From: Natronococcus sp. CG52
GTDB taxonomy: Archaea; Halobacteriota; Halobacteria; Halobacteriales; Natrialbaceae
Length of the DNA: 64,000 nucleotides
Direction of reading: 5' to 3'
Assembly (NCBI RefSeq): GCF_023913515.1
Contig: NZ_CP099391.1
Span: 372,001-436,000 of the forward strand
In this document: one piece after another, positions 5,550 through 42,061 of the stretch
How positions within the stretch are numbered: position 1 is the stretch's first letter
Layout of the letters: every line of letters starts with the position of its first letter
Notes under the pieces: generated by a model
The model's input: only the letters and a program-made list of their open reading frames with translations
Told to the model about the DNA's origin: nothing
Database searches by the model: none
Translations under genes and position numbers: made by a program

Positions 5550-5795
5550 TCAGGTACTCACGAGCATTTCACGAGCGGCCGGGCTAGCAACCCGCGCCAG
5601 TGCCCCGTATCCGACGTACAGCACGAGTGCTTCAGCCAGCACGTAACCAACCGTGGCAACAGCCTGCCCGGACTCGCCGAGGACGGGAACGACCAGTAGG
5701 ACGCTCAGACATACCACCGTTATACTCAGTAGTACGACCCAGACTGTCGATAAGCGGCATCCGACGGCCGGGGATTCCGACTCCCAATCACTCAT
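5550..5795 (-). CDS. small two-helix membrane protein
   Basis: 81 aa with two hydrophobic segments (about residues 17-39 and 46-66) and no recognised motif. It sits between the FAD oxidase and the TauE gene, overlapping the former by 8 bp and preceding the latter by 2 bp. This tight packing supports it as a real translated gene and possibly an accessory subunit of the exporter. Confidence 0.7.
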   Translation of the reverse strand: MSDWESESPAVGCRLSTVWVVLLSITVVCLSVLLVVPVLGESGQAVATVGYVLAEALVLYVGYGALARVASPAAREMLVST

Positions 5796-7278
5796 GGTAG
5801 GCTCCTCCGTCGGCCTCAGCGCTTCCGGACGGCGTGATGTTCTGGTTTAGGCTGAACAGATTCGTCGGGTCGTACTCGTCTTTCAGGGCGACTAACCGCT
5901 CGTACGTCGGTCCAAACGTGGCCCGCATCATGTCGTTGCCCTCTTCGAGGAATCCCGGGAAGTTCAGGTACACCGACCCGTCCGAGAACTGGCGCATGTC
6001 GTCGAGACAGTCACGCACCCACTCGACGTTCGCGTCGTCGCCCTCCGGGCACTCCCAGTTCGCTTCGACGCCGAGCAGGAAGGGAGCGTGCCGTCCCGCG
6101 AACGCACTGTCTTCGACGTCTACTCGTTCGATCGCGCCACCCAACTGCCAGACATCGACCGTCGAGAGTGGTGACGGTGCTACATCGGTCCAGTAAGCGA
6201 TTCGATCGATGGCGGAGTCCGACAGACCGTCGAGGTACAGCGACTTCCAGTAGTAGCGCATCCCGTCGGGGTAGTCCTCGTCGAAGAGCTGCTGGTAGTC
6301 CACGTACGGCATCGTCCCGCTGAAGTCGACAATCGGTTCAGCGATCTCCCGCAGGGGCGCGAGCGCGCGCTCACCGTCCTCGACCGACCCCGCGTAACAG
6401 CCCGTGATGGCGATCTTGGTGTCGTCCACCGCGTCCGAGGAGAAGAGTTCCTCATCGGGCATCACACCCGACAACGTGAGCGTGCTGGCTTCGTCGGGTG
6501 CTGACGCGACGTACTCGCGGTACGCGCGCAGACACTCGCGCATTCGGCCCCCCGGATAGAATACGAGGCAGGTCGCCACCTCGGGCCCGACCGGGTGGAG
6601 GTCGAACTCGAAGCCGGTAACGACCCCGAAATTCCCGCCGCCACCGCGAAGGCCCCAGAAGAGGTTCGGGTTTTCGTCTTCGCTGGCGGTCAGGTAGCCA
6701 CCGTCTGCCGTGACCAGATTTACGGAGGCGAGGTTGTCGCAGGTTAGGCCGTACTTGCAGCGGAGGTGACCGATGCCACCTCCCAGCGTCAGTCCCGCGA
6801 CGCCCGTCTCAGAGACGACCCCGCCGGGCGTTGCGAGACCGAAGGCCTGCGTCTCGTGATCGACATCCGCCCACGTGGCACCGGCCTGGACCCACGCTGT
6901 CCGTGCGTCAGGGTCTACCCACACACCCCGCATCTCGGAGAGATCGATGACGAGGCCGTCGTCGCAGACGGCCGTCCCGGCGACGTTGTGGCCACCACCG
7001 CGAACCGCCACCAGCAGATCGTTCTCGCGCGCGAAGTTCACCGCGCTGATGACGTCGCCGACGCCACGACATCGGGCAATCAGGCCCGGACGCTTGTCGA
7101 TCATCCCGTTCCACACTGCACGCGCGTCGTCGTAGGCAGCGTCCTCAGAACGGCTGCGCCGTTCTGATGGAGTCGAAAGAGCGAAGCTCTTTCGAACGTC
7201 GTCAGGACAAATTAGATCGCCGTGGAATCCTGCTTCGAACTGTTCGATCTGTTCGATGGGGATGGCTAGTCGTGCCAT
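5788..7278 (-). CDS. FAD-linked oxidoreductase, berberine-bridge-enzyme type
   Basis: 496 aa, usual family length. An FAD-binding PCMH domain (about residues 60-240) contains VRGGGHNVAG, whose His is the expected 8-alpha-histidyl attachment site, and GVVSETGVAGLTLGGGIGHL. The second covalent site, a Cys in bicovalent relatives, is Val here, so monocovalent FAD is expected. The C-terminus has the BBE motif YDPTNLFSLNQNI. The N-terminus carries an in-frame palindromic insert near 7140-7200. These enzymes oxidise sugars or secondary metabolites with O2. First gene of an operon with the small membrane protein and TauE; the regulator at 7419 is divergent. Confidence 0.92.
   Translation of the reverse strand: MARLAIPIEQIEQFEAGFHGDLICPDDVRKSFALSTPSERRSRSEDAAYDDARAVWNGMIDKRPGLIARCRGVGDVISAVNFARENDLLVAVRGGGHNVAGTAVCDDGLVIDLSEMRGVWVDPDARTAWVQAGATWADVDHETQAFGLATPGGVVSETGVAGLTLGGGIGHLRCKYGLTCDNLASVNLVTADGGYLTASEDENPNLFWGLRGGGGNFGVVTGFEFDLHPVGPEVATCLVFYPGGRMRECLRAYREYVASAPDEASTLTLSGVMPDEELFSSDAVDDTKIAITGCYAGSVEDGERALAPLREIAEPIVDFSGTMPYVDYQQLFDEDYPDGMRYYWKSLYLDGLSDSAIDRIAYWTDVAPSPLSTVDVWQLGGAIERVDVEDSAFAGRHAPFLLGVEANWECPEGDDANVEWVRDCLDDMRQFSDGSVYLNFPGFLEEGNDMMRATFGPTYERLVALKDEYDPTNLFSLNQNITPSGSAEADGGAYHE
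7146..7194. repeat. paired-hairpin palindromic insert within the FAD oxidase gene
   Basis: Two perfect hairpins: 7146-7166 (8-bp arms CAGAACGG/CCGTTCTG, 5-nt loop) and 7174-7194 (9-bp arms CGAAAGAGC/GCTCTTTCG, loop GAA), 7 nt apart. They encode about 20 extra residues between LICPDD and AYDDARAVWNG, where relatives run on directly. The reading frame is kept. Confidence 0.65.
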
Positions 7279-40450: not shown

Positions 40451-42061
40451 ATGACGCATGCACAAGGAATGACGAATCTCGTCACAGCAGTCGCTGCGAC
40501 CGTCGATTCGAACCCGGAGTCGCCCGCGATCGCGTTCGACGGCGATCGAGTGAGCTACGAGGCGTTCTGGGACCGGGCCGGACGATTCGCGAAGGCGCTC
40601 GACGAGCGAGGGGTCGGCGAGGGCGACCGGGTCGGAATCTACCTCCCGAACCTGCCGCAGTTCGTCACGGCGTTCTACGGCACGCTCCGGGCCGGCGGCA
40701 TCGTCGTCCCGATGAACCCGCAGTACAAGGCCCGCGAACTCAGTCACCTGCTCGGCGACAGCGGCGCGAAGGCGGTCGTCTCGCTCGGCGCGAACGTCGA
40801 CGAAGTCGGCTCGGTGCTCGAGGACACCGCCGTCGAACACGTGATCGCCGTCGGCGACACCGAGGATTCGGCGGCGGTCGGCTTCGAGGAGTTCCTCGCC
40901 GACGAGACGCTCGAGATCGTCGACCGCGCGGACGGAGACGTCGCCGTCCAGCCCTACACCTCGGGGACGACCGGCACGCCGAAGGGCGTCCTGCTCACCC
41001 ACCGCAACCTCGCCTGGACGACGCGGGCGAACGCCGACGTCCCGCCGGGGGGATTTCAGGAGTCGGATCGACTGGTCGGCACGCTCCCGCTCTTTCACAT
41101 CTACGGGATGTCCGTCGTGATGAACGGCGCCATGTACAGCGGCGGTACCTACTACCCCGTTTCCGAGTGGGACGCACCGACGGTGATGGACCTGCTCGAG
41201 GACGCGGAGATCTCGATCATGTTCGGCGTCCCGGCGATGTTCAACGACGTGATCAACCAGCCCGAGGCCGACGCCTACGAGTTCGACTCCCTGCGGTTCG
41301 TCAACTCGGGCGGGGCCAGTCTCCCGATCGAGGTGCTCGAACGCTTCGAGACGCTGTACGGCGTCCAGTTGAACGAGGGGTACGGGCTCACGGAGACGAG
41401 TCCGGTTACCCACGCCAACACGGCCGACTCGCGGCGAAAGGGTAGCATCGGGCAGCCCCTCGACGGCGTCGAGGCGAAGGTCGTAGACGAGGAGTTCGAG
41501 GAAGTGCCTCGAGTCCCGGAGGGGCCGGTGAACGAGGAGAGCGTTGCGTCGACGACGCAACGGAACGGAGGCGGCGAAGCCGCCGACGCCTCCCTCCACG
41601 AGATCACGGGAGAACTCGTCGTCGCCGGTCCGAACGTGATGAAGGGGTACTACGGACTGCCGGAAGCGAACGTGGAGGCCTTCACCGAGGAGGGCGGCAC
41701 GCGCTGGTTCCACACCGGCGACGTCTGTTACTGGGACGAGGACGACTTCTTCTTCGTCGTCGACCGCGAGAAACACATGATCGTCACCGGCGGCTACAAC
41801 GTCTATCCGCGAGAGATAGAGGAACTTCTCTTCGAGCACGAGGCCGTCGCGGACGCCGCCGTCGTCGGCGTGCCGGACGACCGTCGCGGCGAGACCGTGA
41901 AGGCGCTGGTCGTGCCGGTTCCCGACGCTGACGTGACGCCCGAGGAGATCAAACGGTACTGCCTGGACGGCCTGGCGGAGTACAAACACCCGCGGGAGGT
42001 CCAGTTCGTCGAGGAACTGCCCCGAACGACGACCGGGAAGGTCCAGAAGTTCAAGATCTGA
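40451..42061 (+). CDS. acyl-CoA ligase (class I adenylate-forming)
   Basis: 536 aa, full length. It activates a carboxylic acid to its CoA thioester via an acyl-adenylate. Motifs: the phosphate-binding loop YTSGTTGTPKGVLLTHRNL (about residues 168-186), NEGYGLTETSPVTH (A5-like), WFHTGDVCYWDEDDF (A7) and IVTGGYNVYPREIEELLF (A8), with the terminal catalytic Lys in TTTGKVQKFKI. An in-frame two-hairpin insert lies near residues 364-380. The ATG at 40469 is an alternative start. The TRAP operon ends 66 bp upstream on the same strand, suggesting the imported acid is its substrate. Confidence 0.93.
   Translation: MTHAQGMTNLVTAVAATVDSNPESPAIAFDGDRVSYEAFWDRAGRFAKALDERGVGEGDRVGIYLPNLPQFVTAFYGTLRAGGIVVPMNPQYKARELSHLLGDSGAKAVVSLGANVDEVGSVLEDTAVEHVIAVGDTEDSAAVGFEEFLADETLEIVDRADGDVAVQPYTSGTTGTPKGVLLTHRNLAWTTRANADVPPGGFQESDRLVGTLPLFHIYGMSVVMNGAMYSGGTYYPVSEWDAPTVMDLLEDAEISIMFGVPAMFNDVINQPEADAYEFDSLRFVNSGGASLPIEVLERFETLYGVQLNEGYGLTETSPVTHANTADSRRKGSIGQPLDGVEAKVVDEEFEEVPRVPEGPVNEESVASTTQRNGGGEAADASLHEITGELVVAGPNVMKGYYGLPEANVEAFTEEGGTRWFHTGDVCYWDEDDFFFVVDREKHMIVTGGYNVYPREIEELLFEHEAVADAAVVGVPDDRRGETVKALVVPVPDADVTPEEIKRYCLDGLAEYKHPREVQFVEELPRTTTGKVQKFKI
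41542..41584. repeat. paired-hairpin palindromic insert within the acyl-CoA ligase gene
   Basis: Hairpin 41542-41562 has perfect 9-bp arms CGTTGCGTC/GACGCAACG with loop GAC. After 7 nt, hairpin 41570-41584 has 6-bp arms GGCGGC/GCCGCC with loop GAA. It adds about 17 residues between VNEE and SLHEITGEL without breaking the frame. Confidence 0.65.

Follow-up and report, generated by a model that had tools for sequence, protein, structure and literature searches.

Why does the gene for a FAD-dependent oxidase in Natronococcus sp. CG52 hold two perfect DNA hairpins within its coding sequence, and what is the segment that they form? The gene lies in a 64,000-nt stretch of DNA, here called the window (G000:C1:372001-436000), which belongs to a 4.74-Mb genome in three contigs. 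An earlier note on this DNA had described two perfect hairpins with arms of 8 and 9 bp, spaced 7 nt apart, within an in-frame insert of about 20 residues. Both hairpins are present, but their arms are 10 bp long and the linker between them is 5 nt; the insert was confirmed at 19 residues by alignment with orthologues, which run from an RPDD-like motif to YDDAR without it. The features of the site are:

5788..7278, minus strand: gene for a FAD-dependent oxidase of the EncM/berberine-bridge type, 496 aa (open reading frame; Pfam FAD_binding_4 and BBE; EncM is the top match in the PDB, E 1e-108)
7138..7194, minus strand: 57-nt insert, codons 29-47 (RKSFALSTPSERRSRSEDA), from alignment against orthologues without it, L068 among them; AlphaFold2 pLDDT <50 at residues 28-45
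7140..7200, plus strand: full type B element, matched by model R2 (CGTCCT...GAACGTC) at 58.9 bits, E 2.4e-15 (R2 E-values are rough, coming from a short calibration)
7140..7144, plus strand: left tag CGTCC, a conserved column block in alignment A4 (for the CGTC tag, compare PMC3733652)
7145..7167, plus strand: hairpin 1, 10-bp arms TCAGAACGGC and GCCGTTCTGA, loop TGC; its outer half CAGAA/TTCTG is kept across the type B family
7168..7172, plus strand: linker TGGAG, 5 nt (TGGGC in the type B family)
7173..7195, plus strand: hairpin 2, 10-bp arms TCGAAAGAGC and GCTCTTTCGA, loop GAA
7194..7198, minus strand: right tag CGTTC (GAACG on the plus strand), facing outward as in a head-to-head dimer (alignment A4)

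The hairpins lie near the start of the oxidase gene, inside its coding sequence and antisense to the model strand of the element. In other type B copies, for example L167 and L204, the right tag takes the CGTC form (GGACG on the plus strand).

As judged by sequence matches, the window segment is a member of a dispersed haloarchaeal family, type B, with the consensus CGTCCT-[CAGAAnnn/nnnTTCTG]-ATGGGC(TG)-[9-10-bp hairpin]-GAACG, in which the inner stems and loops are the main variable parts. The earlier note had proposed that structure rather than sequence is shared; on the contrary, the CGTCCT tag, the CAGAA/TTCTG outer stem, the ATGGGC linker and the GAACG end are strongly shared. A pattern taken from hairpin 1 of the window (CAGAAN{7,15}TTCTGNYGGGC) occurred in 71 of 119 haloarchaeal genomes, with its reversed control nearly absent. 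The covariance model R2, which was built on 15 copies with the window copy and its orthologues left out, recognised the window copy at the score given above. Copies matching R2 were found in 37 of 41 haloarchaeal genomes; in a sample drawn from the whole phylum, 22 of 24 genomes from the same order had copies, compared to 0 of 124 from outside that order. The matches are 55-67 nt long, with stems of 8-10 bp and, in the majority, 3-nt loops; most copies appear intergenic, often near tnpB. R2 copy counts are lower bounds, part of the candidates being scored per genome; G082 (L306-L312), a haloarchaeal genome of 1.9 Mb from another family, gave no fewer than 60 type B matches, of which some are clustered.

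Hairpin pairs are numerous in the source genome. We also observed arrays, termed type A, of the form GTSGTT-[CGARA...]-TGATGA-[...]-AACSAC, with 2-4 hairpins at a period of ~27 nt and mostly outside clear genes. Examples in the source genome are G000:C1:489621-489721 (L109), C1:800947-801047 (L013) and C3:86570-86670 (L043); the homologous arrays L013 and L043 have inverted loops (gtc/gac and aga/tct). Model R1, made from type A arrays, had matches in 100 of 119 haloarchaeal genomes and scored the window site at 36.8 bits. Type A looks like a subfamily distinct from the coding type B.

Similar repeats have been described in bacteria. CGTC-tagged REPs were defined by Di Nocera, De Gregorio and Rocco in 2013 as four families, with five bacterial phyla listed and "Archaea" appearing in the reference list only (PMC3733652). 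They resemble type B in having an outer CGTC tag and head-to-head pairing, in being dispersed, sometimes inside palindromes and sometimes in frame within genes (20-30 aa in the REPs), and in having no known dedicated transposase (PMC3733652). Their tag (CGTC or TGTC/CCTC) is matched by a left CGTC in most A4 rows and a right CGTT/CGTC on the other strand, their stems of 8-9 bp by stems of 8-10 bp, and their mostly head-to-head dimers by tags that point outward on both sides. However, the first and second stem pairs of the REPs are A-T and T-A, whereas type B has C-G/A-T or T-A/C-G (C-G and A-U in 15 of 15 rows of hairpin 1, C-G in hairpin 2); REP loops are 4-5 nt long and those of type B 3 nt in most copies; the REPs end in a CCA tail, whereas hairpin 1 of type B is followed instead by the conserved ATGGGC linker; and the REPs are bacterial whereas type B is haloarchaeal. 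Because loop length, first stem pairs and tail differ, we keep type B apart from the four families and call it a putative archaeal variant of CGTC-tagged REPs that falls outside them.

The analogy with Rickettsia palindromic elements (RPEs), which had been drawn earlier, is apt: RPEs also lie in frame in many unrelated genes, give a similar peptide and favour one frame. They are longer (~150 bp; PMC10969869) than type B (57-64 nt, with R2 matches of 55-67 nt) and belong to another domain of life, and are likened to it by behaviour; RPE-4 and RPE-6 are themselves CGTC REPs. A 2024 review of prokaryotic MITEs described the in-frame frequency of RPEs as unusually high and regarded similar protein evolution in other prokaryotes as conceivable (PMC10969869). 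The GTAG REP/RAYT system is unlike type B, there being no GTAG tag in A4 and no PF01797 match in the source genome. Fungal mitochondrial double-hairpin elements, which are organellar, share with type B two adjacent hairpins, a conserved architecture and dispersal, a likeness of architecture alone. In the literature covered, which included few subscription journals, we found no report of in-frame palindromes or REPs in haloarchaea, and novelty is provisional to that extent.

The reading that we prefer, with a probability of about 0.8, is that the segment is a copy of a haloarchaeal miniature double-hairpin repeat family, a CGTC-REP-like head-to-head dimer (CGTCC-hairpin-TGGGC-hairpin-GAACG), present in the oxidase gene as a tolerated selfish in-frame insertion.

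The alternative that survives best, although we find it doubtful, is that the segment is a terminal-only remnant of an IS200/IS605 (TnpB) transposon, with end palindromes that fused after the core was lost and that are moved by the IS transposase. Such terminal-only IS605 derivatives, called PATEs, are known in Haloquadratum, and like type B they are small and haloarchaeal, with palindromes near both ends and minimal forms of 52 bp (PMC3119063). A TnpB-like gene was present within ~1.5 kb of 35 of 116 type B loci compared to 2 of 240 control pieces, the controls being drawn from the source genome only, and some type B copies lie near Y1 genes. However, PATE palindromes are part of IS ends, whereas type B copies interrupt IS605-type end palindromes (L144, L153, L154) and tnpB itself, and for this reason the IS elements look like targets. 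Furthermore, no transposase was found among the reported window ORFs around the insertion site, and the Y1 transposase domain PF01797 had no match in the source genome; it was present in 41 of the 61 genomes searched. A resident Y1 transposase was rejected as the mobiliser on this absence and because in relatives the number of copies shows no obvious relation to the presence of PF01797. A pattern search over the loci collected found no empty IS right-end palindromes. SMR-A of Haloquadratum walsbyi (PMC3119063) is likewise haloarchaeal, transposase-free and without clear target duplication, but it measures ~110 bp and has long terminal inverted repeats, compared to ~57-64 nt and a terminal match of CGTyC/GAACG only in type B, and its description mentions no in-frame paired hairpins inside genes. 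SMR-A targets near-terminal IS605-type palindromes; some type B copies do so too, whereas many, including the window copy, do not.

It is unlikely that the hairpins act as RNA, in a terminator, processing or stability element, with the coding copies being incidental. Many copies do appear intergenic, and a partly RNA-based action is assumed for bacterial REPs (PMC3733652). In the 15-row alignment, 97.6% of cells are paired and hairpin pairing is maintained by Watson-Crick changes on both sides (8 pairs changed in this way), and G-U pairs are almost absent, as expected for DNA palindromes and in contrast to the frequent G-T pairing noted for bacterial REPs (PMC3733652). The position of the window copy, within coding sequence near a gene start and antisense to the model strand, also argues against such a role, and a scan of five loci against Rfam gave no relevant match, on which ground a known RNA family was rejected as the identity of the element.

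Within the oxidase gene, comparison with orthologues shows that the 57-nt segment is a real insertion, placed as V28-[RKSFALSTPSERRSRSEDA]-A48 and keeping the reading frame. Carriers show the pattern ...V-RKsxAxSxPxERxxRSxDx-xYDDAR..., and empty orthologues read ...RPDDV-DYDDAR...; the remaining homologues examined likewise pass directly from the RPDD-like motif to YDDAR. The carriers are the window gene, Natronococcus jeotgali (DSM 18795; L066/L341), G118, G067 and Halosimplex salinum (L342). A check for the same residues in orthologues from many genera left the insertion standing: carriers occur patchily in at least three haloarchaeal genera, and most orthologues from the same genera and families, together with all bacterial homologues examined and the deep haloarchaeal ones, lack the insert. 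In a tree made from the rest of the oxidase protein, carriers are interspersed among non-carriers and do not form one clade, so that two or three changes are required and transfer or loss must be assumed; a single insertion with strictly vertical descent was rejected as incompatible with this tree unless losses or transfer are added. Because the carriers have identical stem sequences, a single origin with later loss or transfer seems likelier than repeated insertion. Natrinema zhouii (L344, on a plasmid) has an 11-nt scar, TTCTGAGGACG, identical to the element's final 11 nt and located just upstream of the YDDAR codons, which we read as a direct trace of loss through partial deletion with the frame kept. 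The insert ends are ambiguous by a few nt on account of short repeated ends (CG on both sides), and the target duplication is ambiguous likewise. In the AlphaFold2 model of the window protein, pLDDT falls below 50 at residues 28-45 compared to a mean of 78.9, and the inserted peptide is probably a floppy loop.

These data also bear on the idea that the oxidase had these 19 residues ancestrally and that other lineages lost them, the hairpins being incidental. The scatter of carriers in the oxidase tree and the scar, which shows that loss occurs, would suit it, but bacterial and deep haloarchaeal homologues are without the insert, and the DNA matches a dispersed repeat that is present in unrelated genes; the family match largely refutes this explanation, which we regard as very improbable. 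Chance hairpins in GC-rich, codon-biased DNA, in whose favour one could cite the weak window pairs at 163-205 and 41542-41584, are ruled out by simulation and outgroup genomes (17 links vs 0.0 simulated; R2 E 2.4e-15; 0 of 124 outgroup genomes).

The links come from a paired-hairpin scan of 864 kb of the source genome (40 stretches of 20 kb and the window; 9-bp arms, at most one mismatch per pair), compared with second-order Markov simulations, and overlapping registers of one site are counted repeatedly among the 17; the window hairpins exceed chance expectation. The same design had been claimed for two other enzymes in the window, but a search with arms of at least 6 bp and a linker of 5-8 nt gave only the two weak pairs besides the site, and the claim is not supported. 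The pair at 163-205 has no GNA second loop and is not among the R2 matches; that at 41542-41584 has arms of 9 and 6 bp and a GAA loop, scores 15 bits with R1 (41542-41585) and is also not among the R2 matches. The latter is perhaps one of the two further copies claimed, and is a family member by neither model.

Type B copies occur within other genes as well. A total of 116 loci from relatives and the source genome were surveyed for genic copies, with coding status judged by codon statistics and homology:

Leucyl-tRNA synthetase (LeuRS; L173): in-frame copy; alignment with a solved structure breaks at the insert
PurL (L148): in-frame copy
Lhr-type helicase of the source genome, G000:C1:2797414-2799975 (L240/L320): 59-aa in-frame insert made of a type B copy and more hairpins
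Two acyl-CoA dehydrogenases (L277, L264): in-frame copies
Carboxyltransferase (L231): in-frame copy; alignment with a solved structure breaks at the insert
TnpB (L218/L295 and L158): in-frame copies
GNAT protein (L285): in-frame copy
PLP-dependent enzyme resembling TrpB (L165, 1468-1614): in-frame copy, plus a second one followed by an early end of the frame
Luciferase-like monooxygenase (L166, 1495-1556) and macro-domain protein (L152, 1470-1531): frame-breaking copies

Inserts were compared with an empty orthologue or a solved structure for the oxidase, Lhr, acyl-CoA dehydrogenase, carboxyltransferase and LeuRS. The Lhr insert is missing from the congener G001, and alignment of an acyl-CoA dehydrogenase to a solved structure breaks at the insert (query 198/226 vs chain 176/183). 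The frame breaks in L165, L166 and L152 are perhaps recent insertions awaiting purging.

Eleven antisense in-frame genic copies, the window copy included, all use one phase and have no stops in them, and this phase gives the most hydrophilic product among the six frames (mean hydropathy -1.47). Antisense genic copies were in frame in 11 of 13 cases (P ~4e-4, with the length distribution of the non-genic class as reference). The genic set behind this result is small, and finding part of it via open reading frames gave in-frame cases an advantage; the non-genic class, for its part, still held ~10 sense-strand tnpB copies, mostly in frame, and on that count the test is conservative. The codon-score classifier had missed the in-frame tnpB copies, with their atypical codon usage, and the window copy, which is too near the gene start. 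As a separate observation, sense-strand copies recur, mostly in frame, at one C-terminal TnpB site (HSES-[TSSES...]-TPVETA): L218 753-816, L296 1564-1627, L281 1614-1674, L308 1608-1668, L232 1501-1564 and L282 1579-1639. In L308, TnpB holds two type B copies in tandem.

We found that among copies with the same inner stem, the loops of 194 of 1325 differing pairs were exact reverse complements, compared to 13 complements and 2 reversals. Even allowing for the interdependence of these pairs, and for the contribution that a bias towards GNA loops on either strand would make, the contrast is large; it suggests that hairpin centres flip, inverting in the DNA.

Under the preferred reading as a selfish repeat, we infer that the element would move into CG-containing targets in the form of DNA hairpins, either single-stranded or cruciform, and that its mobiliser is probably an IS200/IS605-type tyrosine (HUH) transposase working in trans. 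Most landings in genes would be purged, and survivors would be those that keep the frame and the phase giving a hydrophilic, Ser/Asp/Glu/Arg-rich peptide, which could be tolerated as a disordered loop; afterwards, the hairpins would decay or the insert would be lost. We take the predicted peptide to be a tolerated selfish insertion and not a functional domain.

More broadly, we lean towards the view that a haloarchaea-wide double-hairpin element, for which no transposase of its own is obvious, has lengthened important enzymes such as LeuRS, PurL and the Lhr helicase on repeated occasions, each time by a hydrophilic disordered segment read in a single fixed phase, that its hairpin centres invert in the DNA, and that it would be an archaeal counterpart of protein-coding palindromes. 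In-frame palindromes of this sort have so far been discussed largely as something peculiar to Rickettsia and some other bacteria; if haloarchaea in general show them too, this would suggest that proteins can be lengthened by selfish hairpin DNA as a general process. Haloarchaea that are amenable to genetics would then also allow a test of which enzyme moves CGTC-type repeats, a question left from 2013. In annotating haloarchaeal proteins, a loop of ~18-22 residues of the D/R-V-R/H..SEDA type should first be examined as a possible inserted repeat before a function is assigned to it.
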